Part shown: positions 8,036 through 63,868 of the stretch, piece after piece
Numbering within the stretch: position 1 is the first letter of the stretch
Layout of the letters: the number at the start of each line of letters is the position of its first letter
Origin: Alphaproteobacteria bacterium
GTDB taxonomy: Bacteria; Pseudomonadota; Alphaproteobacteria; SMXP01
NCBI GenBank assembly: GCA_028285305.1
Contig: JANQPV010000009.1
Span: 1-64,000 of the forward strand
Direction of reading: 5' to 3'
Length of the DNA stretch: 64,000 nt
Notes under the pieces: generated by a model
Told to the model about the DNA's origin: nothing
What the model saw: the letters and a program-made list of their open reading frames with translations, nothing else
The model's database searches: none
Translations under genes and position numbers: made by a program

Positions 8036-8611
8036 TTAGTTGTCGCCGCCCAAGGCGCCAGTGACAACACTTTGCATAGCCTTCAGGTTCTCTTCCGTAG
8101 GCGGTAGACCGACGCTGCGCAGAAACGCCTCTCCGAAAAGCGCCGATCCGACGAGAAAGACGTTGAGCGCGGCGATGCGAACTTTTGCTTCTGAGTGTTC
8201 GTGACCCGCCGATTCTGCAAATTGATCGGATAAATCTTCGAACATGCCTTGGCCGCGGCTTTTCCACCCCATTTGCGACAACCACATGGCCAGGGCCGCA
8301 TATCCTTTTTGCCGGTATTTTTGGTCCAAAAGTTGGGCCACGGCGCCTAAGTCCAACTGGTTTGATTCAGTAGATGTCACCGCCTTTAGCTCGGTCTTCA
8401 TCTGCCTTCCGGCATGAGAAAGAAGTGCTTTCATCAGGCCCATGCGATTGCCAAAATGATAGTGAATGGCCGCGTCGGTCATGTCCAATTCACGTGCAAT
8501 TGTTTGCACCCGTACGGCATCGGGACCGCCCGAAATCAAGTGTTTTTCGGCAGCTTCCAAAATGAGCCTGCGGGCTTGTTCAGCGGGAAGCCGCTTCTTT
8601 ACGCGTTTCAA
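8036..8611 (-). CDS. TetR/AcrR-family regulator
   Basis: A 191-residue repressor. The N-terminal 60 residues form the TetR helix-turn-helix (ARRLILEAAEKHLISGGPDA, then VQTIARELDMTDAAIHYHFGN). The rest is a helical ligand domain with no close match I can name. It is divergent from an alpha/beta hydrolase gene, and the 94-bp gap between them contains a perfect 34-bp palindrome. The arrangement predicts that it represses both itself and the hydrolase until a ligand, perhaps the hydrolase substrate, is bound. Confidence 0.92.
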   Translation of the reverse strand: MKRVKKRLPAEQARRLILEAAEKHLISGGPDAVRVQTIARELDMTDAAIHYHFGNRMGLMKALLSHAGRQMKTELKAVTSTESNQLDLGAVAQLLDQKYRQKGYAALAMWLSQMGWKSRGQGMFEDLSDQFAESAGHEHSEAKVRIAALNVFLVGSALFGEAFLRSVGLPPTEENLKAMQSVVTGALGGDN

Positions 8612-8635
8612 CTTCGTCTCCCATTCAAAAGTCTG

Positions 8636-8669
8636 GACTCTTAACTTAGACTAGTCTAAGTTAAGAGTC
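8636..8669. promoter_or_regulatory. Perfect 34-bp palindrome, TetR operator
   Basis: The half-site GACTCTTAACTTAGACT (8636-8652) is followed directly by its exact reverse complement (8653-8669), with no central spacer. It lies 25 bp from the start of the TetR gene and 36 bp from the start of the hydrolase gene. TetR-type repressors bind such palindromes, and the length would admit two dimers. It could also form a long hairpin in RNA, but its place between two divergent starts argues for an operator. Confidence 0.85.
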
Positions 8670-8705
8670 TGTGATCAAGAATTTCAGATTGAAGAGGTTG
8701 GCGCA

Positions 8706-9632
8706 ATGACTGTGATGAACCGGGAAGAAGAAATCGCGCATTTGTCTCGCGTGGTCGAGGCGGCAGATTTGGACATCGAAGACGTGATCCTGCCGCGGCA
8801 CTTGCACGTTGTTTTGGGTAATATGCGATTTCACTACACGGAATGGGGTGAGCGCGGGAAGCCCGCGATCTTGTTTTTGCATGGAGGAAATCAGACGGCT
8901 CACACGTGGGATGCCGTGTGCCTTGCTCTTAGCAGGGATTTTCACTGTGTTGCTTTAGACCAGCGGGGCCATGGCGAAAGTGAGTGGTCCTACGGGCACC
9001 ACTACAGCCCGCAGGACCATGCAAAAGACATTGAGGGGTTGGTGGAGCATCTTGGTTGGAATTGGTTTGTTCTCGTCGGCATGTCCATGGGGTGTTTGAA
9101 TGGGATGCACTTCGCTGCCCGGCACTGTGGGAAGCTCGCGGGTTTTGTGGCGGTTGATGCCGGGCCGTTTGTGCAAGTTGAGGCGGCGTCCGGTATTGTC
9201 AGCTTCGTTAAAGACAATGTTGAACATGACAGTCTTGAGGACTTTGTTTCTGCCTCGCTCAAGTTCAACCCCAAACGCAGACCCGAATTGCTCCGACACA
9301 GTCTAACCCGCAGCGTTCGGCAGACCAGTGACGGAAAGTGGACTTGGAAGTCGGATCGAAGGAGGTCCCTCGATATAGCGAATATGAAAGACCTGATGAG
9401 GGAACTCGAAGATCTCGTGGATCACATGACCTGTCCGACCCTCGTCATGCGCGGTGGGGAAAGCCAAGTCTACTCCGAAAACTCAGCAGAGAGATTTGCT
9501 GGCAAGCTCGCTGATGGGCGCTGGGTGAGCGTTCCGGGTGCTGGACACACCATACAAGGAGACAATCCGAAACAATTCGTGGCGGAATTAAGGACGTTCT
9601 TGAATGAACTCGGCCGTCCGTGGGCTGCTTAA
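8706..9632 (+). CDS. Alpha/beta hydrolase
   Basis: A 308-residue cytoplasmic alpha/beta-hydrolase-fold protein. The oxyanion motif FLHGGNQTAHTWD lies at about residues 57-69, the nucleophile elbow VGMSMG puts Ser127 at the catalytic position, and GAGHTIQG near residue 283 supplies the histidine. The DQRGHGES strand motif is also present. This is the general type that cleaves C-C or ester bonds in catabolic pathways or acts as a lipase; the substrate is not evident. It is divergent from the TetR gene and almost certainly controlled by it through the shared palindrome. Confidence 0.92.
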   Translation: MTVMNREEEIAHLSRVVEAADLDIEDVILPRHLHVVLGNMRFHYTEWGERGKPAILFLHGGNQTAHTWDAVCLALSRDFHCVALDQRGHGESEWSYGHHYSPQDHAKDIEGLVEHLGWNWFVLVGMSMGCLNGMHFAARHCGKLAGFVAVDAGPFVQVEAASGIVSFVKDNVEHDSLEDFVSASLKFNPKRRPELLRHSLTRSVRQTSDGKWTWKSDRRRSLDIANMKDLMRELEDLVDHMTCPTLVMRGGESQVYSENSAERFAGKLADGRWVSVPGAGHTIQGDNPKQFVAELRTFLNELGRPWAA

Positions 9633-59978: not shown

Positions 59979-60929
59979 ATGGCAAGCTGGCAATTCACCA
60001 AAGGACTGCACGATCTGGGAAACGGCGCTTGGGCATATCTACAGCCGGACGGCGGCTGGGGCTGGTCCAATTCCGGTCTCATCACCGACGGCGATCAAGC
60101 CCTGCTGGTGGATACGCTCTTCGATGAAGTATTGACGGATGAAATGCTCCGTACCATGCAGAATGCGACGGGCTTTGAGCGGAACGGGATCCAGCAACTG
60201 GTCAACACCCATGCTAATGGGGATCATACCTATGGCAACGGACTGCTGGAAAACGCGGAGATCTATGCTTCGGAAGAGGGGGCCAAAGAGCAAGAAGAAG
60301 TGCCGCCCGAAATGCTTGCGGCCATGGTTCAGGGCGCACCGGACATGGGCGAACTGGGCCAATACGTTCTGCATTGTTTTGGTGACTTCAAATTTGAGGG
60401 CATTAAACCCCGTAAGCCCACAAAAACGTTCACGGGGGAGATGACGGCGAAGGTGGGCGACAAAGACGTGCGGCTCATCGAAGTGGGTCCGGCCCATACG
60501 CGCGGGGACGTGCTGGTTCATGTGCCCGACGACAAAGTGGTCTATACAGGGGATATTCTGTTTATAGACGGCACGCCTATCATGTGGGCAGGCCCGGTCG
60601 CCAATTGGATTAAGGCCTGTGATCTCATTATGGATATGGATGTCGATGCGATTGTGCCCGGCCATGGTCCGATAACGGACAAAAAGGGTGTATCTCGGGT
60701 CAAAGACTATTTGAACTATGTCAATGTCGAGGCGCGCAAACGATATGATGCGGGCCTGCCCGCGGACGAGGCGGCGAAGGATATTGCGCTGAGCGACTTT
60801 GACTCTTGGATCGATTCCGAACGCATTGCGGTCAATGTGGCAACGCTCTACCGGGAGTATTCGGGCGATACGTCCGAGCCCAATGTGGTCGAGTTGTTTA
60901 CGTTGATGTCGGATCTCGCCAAGCGCTAG
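59979..60929 (+). CDS. MBL-fold metallo-hydrolase
   Basis: A 316-residue metallo-beta-lactamase-fold enzyme. The metal motif THANGDHTYGN (His78, Asp82, His83) replaces the usual HxHxDH, with Asn in the second position, so one histidine ligand is missing by eye. Later ligands are GPAHTRGDVLVH, VYTGDILFIDG and PGHGPITDKKG. It could be a hydrolase, or a lyase or transferase with altered metal chemistry. GGAGAG precedes the ATG at 59979. It starts 16 bp after the amidohydrolase gene and overlaps the convergent GST end by 4 bp. Confidence 0.9.
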   Translation: MASWQFTKGLHDLGNGAWAYLQPDGGWGWSNSGLITDGDQALLVDTLFDEVLTDEMLRTMQNATGFERNGIQQLVNTHANGDHTYGNGLLENAEIYASEEGAKEQEEVPPEMLAAMVQGAPDMGELGQYVLHCFGDFKFEGIKPRKPTKTFTGEMTAKVGDKDVRLIEVGPAHTRGDVLVHVPDDKVVYTGDILFIDGTPIMWAGPVANWIKACDLIMDMDVDAIVPGHGPITDKKGVSRVKDYLNYVNVEARKRYDAGLPADEAAKDIALSDFDSWIDSERIAVNVATLYREYSGDTSEPNVVELFTLMSDLAKR

Positions 60930-61558
60930 CCTAGTTCCGGATACGCCCTTTTGTAGGCGGCACGGTCCGCCAATTGGGCGTGATAGGATCGTAGAACCGG
61001 ATACTCCGTGATCAGTCCCGTGAGGGTTGCCATGAAGCAGCTGTGTCCGATTAGAATGTCCGCGCCGGAAAACCTATCCCCGACAAGATAGTCTTTGTCT
61101 CGAAGTTCTCGTGAGAGAATCTCTGCGCGTTCGGCGAAATCCCGTTTGCCGCGCGTCGCCAGCTCAGGGTTATGGAGCGTCCCGGGCGGACGCATGCCTT
61201 CGAGCGGGCGCATTGTATTGTCAAAATACATCATCACCGCCGGATCGACTTCCGTTCCAGCAAAGACACACCATTGGTAGTAGTTTGCGCGCTCAGGTGA
61301 GCCCGTTTCTGGCGCGAGCTTTTTTTCCGGATACTCGTCAATGAGCTGCAGAACAATCGCCACCGATTCGAATATGGAATAGGTCTCTGTCCGGATGGCC
61401 GGCACGGCGCCCAAGGGCTGTATCTCCCGATAGTGAGCCGTATTCTGCTCTCCTTTGGGGAGATCGACAAGCGTGCTGGTGTACGGAATATCAAGCTCTT
61501 CGAGAGCCCACTTGGCTCTTTGTGAGCGGGTTGGGGGAAACTCGAACAATTCGATCAT
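60926..61558 (-). CDS. Glutathione S-transferase family protein
   Basis: A 210-residue GST. MIELFEFPPTRSQRAKWALE opens the thioredoxin-like domain, and REIQPLGAVPAIRTETYSIF, with a Ser-Val pair in ESVAIVLQLIDEYPEK, follows. The C-terminal domain includes RFSGADILIGHSCFMATL. The start at 61558 is preceded by GGAGG; the longer frame to 61579 adds seven residues. Its end overlaps that of the MBL gene by 4 bp, in convergent orientation. It is divergent from an ArsR regulator that lies 93 bp away. Confidence 0.92.
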   Translation of the reverse strand: MIELFEFPPTRSQRAKWALEELDIPYTSTLVDLPKGEQNTAHYREIQPLGAVPAIRTETYSIFESVAIVLQLIDEYPEKKLAPETGSPERANYYQWCVFAGTEVDPAVMMYFDNTMRPLEGMRPPGTLHNPELATRGKRDFAERAEILSRELRDKDYLVGDRFSGADILIGHSCFMATLTGLITEYPVLRSYHAQLADRAAYKRAYPELG

Positions 61559-61583
61559 GAATGCGCCCTCCGGCAACAATTAC

Positions 61584-61637
61584 TGAACTACTTGGTTAAG
61601 TAATATAAGCGTGTTATATAGTCAACTAATTAGTTCA
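61584..61637. promoter_or_regulatory. Paired inverted operator sites, ArsR target
   Basis: TGAACTACTTGGTTAAGTA (61584-61602) and the reverse-oriented TAGTCAACTAATTAGTTCA (61619-61637) agree at 15 of 19 positions when one is inverted; centres are 35 bp apart. The second contains a perfect 12-bp palindrome, AACTAATTAGTT (61624-61635). The sites lie between the GST and ArsR starts, as expected for a dimeric ArsR repressor acting on both. Confidence 0.65.
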
Positions 61638-61651
61638 CTATTGGAGTCGGC

Positions 61652-61966
61652 ATGGACCACCTAAACGCAACCTTTGCTGCGCTGAGCGATGAGACACGGC
61701 GTGCCATCCTTCATCAGTTGATGGCCGGGGAAGCCCGCCTCTCCGATCTCGCCCGTCCCTTCGATATGTCGCAAACTGCGGTTTCCAAGCATGTTCGTGT
61801 GCTGAAGGAGGCGGGATTGGTCGATATCGAAAAGCGGGGCCGGACGCGCCACTGCCGCTTAAAAGCTGAGGCGCTGAAGGATGCGTCGGATTGGCTCGCG
61901 GAATACCGCGCTTTCTGGACGCAGCAGTTTGAAAACCTCGCTCAGCATCTGAAGGAGAACAAATGA
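61652..61966 (+). CDS. ArsR-family regulator (non-metal type)
   Basis: A 104-residue winged-helix repressor: ATFAALSDETRRAILHQLMA, LSDLARPFDMSQTAVSKHVR (recognition helix), then EAGLVDIEKRGRTRHCRLKA (wing). The metal-binding cysteines of ArsR/SmtB are absent, so it is the PadR-like or 'ArsR + SRPBCC' group, which senses organic or redox signals. Inverted repeats in the upstream gap are its probable operators. Its stop overlaps the ATG of the SRPBCC gene by 4 bp, indicating tight coupling. Confidence 0.94.
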   Translation: MDHLNATFAALSDETRRAILHQLMAGEARLSDLARPFDMSQTAVSKHVRVLKEAGLVDIEKRGRTRHCRLKAEALKDASDWLAEYRAFWTQQFENLAQHLKENK

Positions 61967-62451: not shown

Positions 62452-63222
62452 TTAGTCTATCTGACTGCTCGTGGGGCGGTGGTTCGCATAGATTTCAAGC
62501 ACCCATTTGCCGCCTGGATGCGACCGCCACTCTTCTAGCCAGCCATCGACGCGCGGCGGCGTCGGACTGGGCCAACTCATGGACGGCGAGGGTGGGCTCA
62601 CCCCGATTGCAAGGATCGACGCTGCCGCGAGATCGGCGATGCTGAATCGCTCGCCCACCAAAAAGCCAGAGGGCTGGACGTTTGCCTCTATGTAGTCGAA
62701 GCCTCGGCGTGTTGTCTTGAGGGCCGCCGCGACCCCTTCAGGTGAGTCACATCCCAATGCTTTGCGCAGCCGAGGTGCCATGCGCGCAGTCAAAAGACCG
62801 TACATCGTCCGTATAGCCCTTCCATGATGGACCCCGAATATTTCCGCCACATACTGAGGATGATTCAAAAGTATGTCGAACAAGGCGGCGCGGATGTTTG
62901 GGCCGATGTCCTCGTCGAATACTCTTTGAATCTCTAGTGTTCGGGCTTGCTCTTCCGGGTCTTCGGGAAGGAGCGGGCGTTCCGGGTATCTGGTGTCGAG
63001 TTGCGCCAGAATTTCCGCCGAACCGTTGACCACCTCTCCATTGTCAAACCGAACGACGGGCACTTGGCGCTGACCGGTGAGCTTTTGAACCGGCCTTGCT
63101 TGCAGGGGCGGCATGAAGGATTTCCGGATATGGGGAACGGCTTTGTGGTCGAGCCCCCAGCGCGCCTTTTCGTTGTAGTGCGAATAATTCAGTTGCCACA
63201 GTTCGACTTTGGATTTTGACAT
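62452..63222 (-). CDS. Glutathione S-transferase family protein
   Basis: A 256-residue GST: VELWQLNYSHYNEKARWGLD opens the thioredoxin-like domain, LTGQRQVPVVRFDNGEVVNG has the cis-Pro, and then SAEILAQLDTRYPERPLLPE. The C-terminal helical domain includes LVGERFSIADLAAASILAIG. The N-terminal NYSHYNEKARW replaces the usual SPxxxR with SHYNEKAR, as in several bacterial GSTs. GGAGGTCGCTC precedes the ATG at 63222. It is divergent from a TetR gene and likely repressed by it. Confidence 0.92.
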   Translation of the reverse strand: MSKSKVELWQLNYSHYNEKARWGLDHKAVPHIRKSFMPPLQARPVQKLTGQRQVPVVRFDNGEVVNGSAEILAQLDTRYPERPLLPEDPEEQARTLEIQRVFDEDIGPNIRAALFDILLNHPQYVAEIFGVHHGRAIRTMYGLLTARMAPRLRKALGCDSPEGVAAALKTTRRGFDYIEANVQPSGFLVGERFSIADLAAASILAIGVSPPSPSMSWPSPTPPRVDGWLEEWRSHPGGKWVLEIYANHRPTSSQID

Positions 63223-63235
63223 GAGCGACCTCCTA

Positions 63236-63280
63236 TTGCATGATGATTAACATGCAAATTGAGTGATGATCAACATGCAA
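63236..63280. promoter_or_regulatory. Inverted and direct repeats, TetR operator
   Basis: TTGCATG (63236-63242) and CATGCAA (63251-63257) form a 7-bp inverted repeat over an 8-bp spacer. TGATGATTAACATGCAA (63241-63257) recurs at 63264-63280 with one change, 23 bp downstream. The sites fill the short gap between a GST start (63222) and a TetR start (63293), so they are the probable operators of that TetR protein. Confidence 0.7.
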
Positions 63281-63292
63281 TAGAGGCCGCTG

Positions 63293-63868
63293 ATGCGCTA
63301 TAGTCGGGAGCATAAGGAGAAAACGAAACAAAGGATCATCCGGGTGGCCGGACGGCTCTTTCGGAAGAAAGGGTATGACGGCGTCGGTATTGATGACATT
63401 ATGGCGGCGGCCAAACTCACCAGAGGGGGGTTCTACGGATACTTCAAATCAAAAGCGGATCTGTTCGCCCATGCGATCAGTCAGCAACCTGATTTTGTGA
63501 CCCGTTTGAGGGCTCGCAATGGCAGCACGCCGCGTTCGCTGCGAGAAGCAGCCAAGAAGGAAGTGGAGGGCTATTTGCATCCCTTCCATCGGAAAATGGT
63601 TGGCGAAGGGTGTGAGCTGGCGTCACTCTCCGTAGACACCGCCAGAGCATCCAAGGCTGCGCAAGAAGGATATGCCGCCCAAGTCAAGGAACTCATTGCC
63701 GAGTTTGAGCGGGGCATGGACGATGGTCCTGCTGCGCAAAGTCGTGCGATCCGGGCCATGGTGATGTGCGTGGGCGGATTGCTCATCGCCCGCGGAATGG
63801 GCGATGACGAACTTGCCATCGAAGTCCTCGCCGCCGCCCGGGAGGGTGCGAAGCGGGAGCTGGGTTAG
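63293..63868 (+). CDS. TetR/AcrR-family regulator
   Basis: A 191-residue repressor. The N-terminal helix-turn-helix is EKTKQRIIRVAGRLFRKKGY followed by VGIDDIMAAAKLTRGGFYGY and FKSKADLFAHAI. The ligand domain contains two conserved-looking cysteines (GEGCELASLS, MVMCVGG). The TxxGxFYxxFxSK pattern is typical of TetR proteins that sense reactive or xenobiotic compounds (YcfQ/NemR-like). It is divergent from a GST gene and adjacent to a repeat array. The last 130 bp of the window show no gene. Confidence 0.93.
   Translation: MRYSREHKEKTKQRIIRVAGRLFRKKGYDGVGIDDIMAAAKLTRGGFYGYFKSKADLFAHAISQQPDFVTRLRARNGSTPRSLREAAKKEVEGYLHPFHRKMVGEGCELASLSVDTARASKAAQEGYAAQVKELIAEFERGMDDGPAAQSRAIRAMVMCVGGLLIARGMGDDELAIEVLAAAREGAKRELG

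Follow-up and report, generated by a model that had tools for sequence, protein, structure and literature searches.

What does a perfect 34-bp palindrome do between a TetR-family gene and a divergent alpha/beta hydrolase gene, and why is it so long and so symmetric? In the window (the whole 64,000-nucleotide stretch of DNA analyzed here), the arm GACTCTTAACTTAGACT abuts its own exact reverse complement at 8636-8669. Complementarity between the two arms (8636-8652 and 8653-8669) is 100% and the spacer is 0, as a sequence-only reading of this DNA had described. By simple arithmetic, a perfect palindrome of this length is expected by chance about 64,000/4^17 = 4e-6 times per 64,000-nt window. The runner-up is 14 bp long in the 64-kb window and 20 bp long in a 463,997-base sample of the same genome (the window plus 20 stretches), in which the 34-bp element is the longest. 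The palindrome lies 36 bp from the hydrolase start, the distance reported earlier, and 24 bp from the TetR start, where the earlier value of 25 was off by one; the gap from start codon to start codon is 94 bp (<200 bp). Features of the locus are listed in Table 1.

Table 1. Features of the TetR/hydrolase locus, in window coordinates
Feature	Coordinates	Strand	Basis or remark
TetR-family repressor, 191 aa, TTG start, recognition helix TDAAIHYHF	8036..8611	-	ORF and domain search
Perfect 34-bp palindrome, 17-bp arms, no spacer	8636..8669		Sequence and palindrome scans
Left outer arm GACTCTTA	8636..8643		Symmetric with 8662-8669; absent at related sites
Core operator (putative) ACTTAGACTAGTCTAAGT	8644..8661		Motif from 8 orthologous loci; score 27.8
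Right outer arm TAAGAGTC	8662..8669		Mirror of 8636-8643; absent at related sites
Alpha/beta hydrolase, 308 aa, ATG start 8706, Ser nucleophile in GMSMG	8706..9632	+	ORF, motif, Pfam

The TetR protein carries a TetR_N DNA-binding domain (PF00440, residues 17-63, 39.5 bits versus a cutoff of 24). Its TTG start (8611, minus strand) is the first start codon in the open frame and is preceded, about 8 nt away, by GGGAG, and we assign the start on this basis. A search of NCBIfam yielded no close named family, with every match far below cutoff. The C-terminal domain is predicted to be all-helical at low confidence (AlphaFold mean pLDDT 67, with much of the C-terminal half <60), and the Foldseek matches listed for this model were TetR-type structures with weak E-values, the model being too weak to rank relatives.

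The hydrolase has three alpha/beta-hydrolase Pfam matches. Weak profile matches to haloalkane dehalogenases were also present; those enzymes use an Asp nucleophile, and we rejected this identity on account of the Ser nucleophile and of dehalogenase models scoring far below cutoff. Among solved structures, the closest relative by sequence is 3p2m (annotated as a possible hydrolase, E 4.5e-27), which we take to be Rv0045c. Rv0045c is described as an esterase that hydrolyzes short-chain esters (PMC2948520). Downstream, the hydrolase gene is followed in the window by a luciferase-like monooxygenase gene oriented towards it, so the hydrolase is probably transcribed alone.

The divergent arrangement recurs in eight further loci: six genomes of the same class (G013, G146, G229, G389, G390 and G391), a contig from a Proteobacteria MAG (L008) and an Embleya plasmid (L081). 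TetR and hydrolase are divergent in all eight of these other loci that have both genes, and the first aligned residues of the pair are 91-106 bp apart (231 in L008, whose alignment starts later). The paired TetRs share 36-49% identity. The eight loci are not independent, since five come from one genus. The family is sparsely distributed: among 385 genomes of the class, own genome included, 19 have a TetR relative (E<=1e-12) and 4 a hydrolase relative (E<=1e-40). Hydrolase relatives occur in 5 of 40 genomes from the family of G013 (its order gives the same 5 of 40), in the same single one of 2 from the family and order of G229, and, in a phylum sample of 398, in the own genome only; a search of phage records found none. 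With the hydrolase as query, eight homologues were recovered outside the window at E<=1e-40 (six genomes, two plasmids), and the TetR gene adjoins seven of them. The exception, on a Simplicispira plasmid (L082 692-4106), is a 39%-identical hydrolase that has no copy of this TetR gene beside it and shares an operon with an SDR gene and two CoA-transferase genes; this operon offers a clue to the reaction that the hydrolase catalyzes. Our literature searches found no description of the TetR/hydrolase pair, which is not proof of absence, and as far as those searches show the group is undescribed.

Does the palindrome accompany the pair? The sequence-only reading had suggested looking for it beside orthologs, and the outcome was divided: the central 18 bp is present in 8/8 paired loci and the 34-bp form in 0/8. 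Each paired ortholog carries two 18-bp intergenic sites with the consensus ACYTWGAnnnnTCWARGT (8/8 loci), spaced 21, 22, 23 (five loci) or 28 bp from center to center. The window departs from this two-tandem-site pattern in having a single 18-bp site, ACTTAGACTAGTCTAAGT, at the center of the palindrome (8644-8661). On a position matrix trained on the 16 sites of the eight paired loci themselves, the window core scores 27.8, above all 16 training sites, whose range among the orthologs is 14.1-27.3. Every other 18-mer in 8600-8717 stays at -6 or lower, leaving no second family site between the genes. In held-out tests, a target's own sites were removed from the matrix, or every g13 site in the case of two genus-g13 loci, and the two intergenic sites still outscored all other positions of the whole locus in 5/5 paired loci (L008, L046, L081, L077 and L010). 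Among loci never used in training, the intergenic pair ranked as the top two in L011 and L123, and one site was found in L080, a second Embleya plasmid without a hydrolase match; the wider group therefore includes single sites outside the window too. In a collection of viral contigs, the 18-bp core had no matches and one 17-bp arm had four single matches, which we put down to chance in view of how large the collection is.

The length and perfection singled out by the earlier reading proved to be unusual even within the element's own TetR family. The window site is symmetric at 9/9 core and 8/8 flank positions, compared with 5-8 of 9 and 0-4 of 8 at the 19 other sites examined, and the outer 8 bp on each side have no counterpart at any of those 19.

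The site also follows the DNA-reading part of the protein. We compared 29 TetR loci (E<=1e-10, seven duplicate loci dropped). Loci whose recognition helix reads [TS]DA[AG][IV]..HF had the site in 11/11 cases; eight of these supplied training sites, and the other three were the window, L011 and L080. Loci with other helices (SH..ILHHF, THANLLHHF, AHSTLLHHF) had it in 0/18, with nothing above a score of 9. The earlier proposal that the palindrome serves the adjacent TetR is thus borne out, at the level of sequence, for its central 18 bp, which are kept in 8/8 orthologous loci and track the recognition helix. Conservation and helix match together point to a putative autoregulatory TetR operator.

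How many genes such an operator would control can be approached by looking for further sites. Of the seven genomes scanned, six had exact consensus matches at the TetR/hydrolase locus alone; in G013, the remaining one, both locus sites differ from consensus by one mismatch. G146 carries two more sites, each with one mismatch and separated by 31 bp, which lie at an unlinked locus (L123 1016-2123) between a SnoaL-like gene and a GFA-like gene. In G124 (L011), homologues of these two genes (52% and 39% identity) flank the TetR gene and a different hydrolase gene; the curated Pfam cut-offs for the SnoaL-like and GFA-like assignments are narrowly missed in G146 and exceeded in G124. Because the G146 sites and the G124 neighbors coincide independently, they support the motif and suggest a small regulon in relatives, possibly of a detoxification or catabolic kind.

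In the genome studied here, 464 kb contained no homologues of the SnoaL-like or GFA-like genes. The site pattern with up to two mismatches matched 13 times per strand, versus 18 in a reversed control, and a second site pattern matched 8 times versus 14. Three further candidates in the 464 kb with matrix scores of 15-18 were rejected as operators: we attribute them to chance because they are unpaired, two lie over ORFs of 167-168 codons, and the reversed control itself reaches 16.2 (one site). On the earlier view that a single hydrolase is the target, the outcome is mixed: in this genome no further site exceeds the control, but in G146 the regulon appears to include a second locus.

Several other regulatory features were noted. 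One palindrome arm with one mismatch, GACTCTTAACTAAGACT, recurs at G000:C72:15335-15351 (L003 1501-1517), between a different TetR gene (25% identity) and an ORF that by eye resembles a Rieske dioxygenase. The arithmetic chance expectation for this match is ~0.03; the core site is absent there, and the neighboring TetR has another recognition helix. Within the window, a second TetR gene (63293-63868, plus strand) diverges from a GST-like gene (62452-63222, minus strand), with an imperfect palindrome, likely the operator of this second TetR, between them at 63233-63283. An ArsR-type regulator gene starting at 61652 (plus strand) likewise diverges from a GST-like gene (60926-61579, minus strand), with a palindrome at 61618-61641.

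If the core is an operator, why are the outer arms symmetric? The family shows no conservation at center positions 8-9 or in the flanks, so symmetry there is not something that ordinary selection for binding requires. A mutational by-product is one explanation, and we give it nearly even weight: a template switch during replication would have turned one flank into the reverse complement of the other, yielding the perfect palindrome in a single step and perhaps erasing a second operator, while the core stayed an operator. The process is known to create or perfect hairpins (PMC8794818). It would account for perfect symmetry at just those center and flank positions that the family leaves free (no other site has a 9/9 core), as well as for the loss in the window of the second site found in 8/8 paired orthologs. 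The state before such an event is not seen in any closely related genome, the paired TetRs being as divergent as given above, and other long perfect palindromes are uncommon in this genome, both of which count against it. The sequence-only reading had instead envisaged two dimers on the 34 bp. A version of that idea, in which overlapping sites are occupied in the manner of QacR or DarR and replace the ancestral separate pair, seems to us unlikely. The outer 8 bp are symmetric at 8/8 positions (chance ~1.5e-5 by arithmetic), and dimer-of-dimer binding to overlapping sites is described for both DarR, with one half-site poorly matched (PMC10636190), and QacR (PMC6018408). Yet no offset 18-mer between the genes rises above -6, versus 27.8 for the core, the flanks reach 4/8 or fewer at 19/19 related sites, and the outer arms match no family half-site, which argues against a second dimer. 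Still more doubtful is the fuller claim that the ancestral pair was replaced by one fused 34-bp super-operator on which two dimers bind cooperatively as a single sharp switch.

A structural role, as a leader-RNA hairpin or a cruciform rather than a protein site, would fit the strong predicted fold of the strand at the palindrome (-14.6 kcal/mol, z -4.7, DNA parameters). Any perfect palindrome folds, however; what the orthologs conserve is an 18-bp unit that is present twice and in many cases has an imperfect center, and no T-run follows the palindrome, nor did a terminator scan find one there. We regard this reading as very improbable.

Because the arms contain no family half-site, and because a template switch would have erased the usual second operator at the very place where it is now lacking, we lean towards the template-switch origin: the symmetric arms more likely arose from a palindrome-extending template switch than from selection for a second dimer. 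The element is most likely an operator of the ordinary kind whose form is unusually long and perfect.

On this evidence the palindrome is, with high probability, the operator of the adjacent TetR, a dimer of which would sit on the central 18 bp (8644-8661) and repress both tetR and the hydrolase gene until a ligand releases it. The bound protein would cover both divergent promoters at their presumed positions, and the ligand may be a small molecule, perhaps the substrate or product of the hydrolase. The geometry agrees with a general trend for TetR regulators <200 bp from a divergent neighbor usually to repress that neighbor (PMC3511530). Scans of the intergenic region for sigma-70-like promoters, one of them with a frequency matrix, returned none above shuffles. 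Read by eye, the five genus-g13 loci have a TTGAC[TA] box 17 bp before a TA[CT]TCA inside the first site. The outer arms were also considered as shared -35 boxes (GACT) and discarded, their score lying within chance. Relatives would run the same switch on two tandem 18-bp sites, plausibly with two dimers on two separate sites, and the window on one fully symmetric site with symmetric flanks; because the second site of all eight paired orthologs is missing there, the window's switch may behave differently.

Members of one TetR subgroup occur in a small number of genomes from a single class, in a Proteobacteria MAG and on actinomycete plasmids; together, these results tie the subgroup to a DNA site and to target genes: the hydrolase and, in relatives, the SnoaL-like and GFA-like genes too. 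This makes the regulator testable and leads towards its ligand. One extended perfect site versus two short ones also provides a natural contrast for relating operator number and symmetry to the sharpness of the switch.

Comparison with known systems places the locus among familiar designs. As in tetR/tetA, the repressor gene diverges from its presumed target (here across ~94 bp) with a palindromic operator between them; tetR/tetA, however, has two operators and a pump as target, whereas the window has a single site of 34-bp perfect symmetry and a hydrolase (PMC3511530). DarR of mycobacteria and Rhodococcus is likewise a TetR-family protein with a perfect palindrome, of 20 bp (PMC10636190), but it binds as two overlapping dimers, and no overlapping family site is visible in the window palindrome. 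QacR provides another long TetR-family operator, of 28 bp (PMC6018408); its center is a 6-bp non-palindromic stretch, in contrast to the spacer-free window palindrome with its conserved 18-bp core. Similar to the relatives' tandem sites is the alphaproteobacterial divergon of BetI2 in Ruegeria pomeroyi, whose intergenic region contains two TetR-type boxes (PMC12442346), although its box sequence and targets are different and its boxes share a flank, whereas the relatives' sites are separate.
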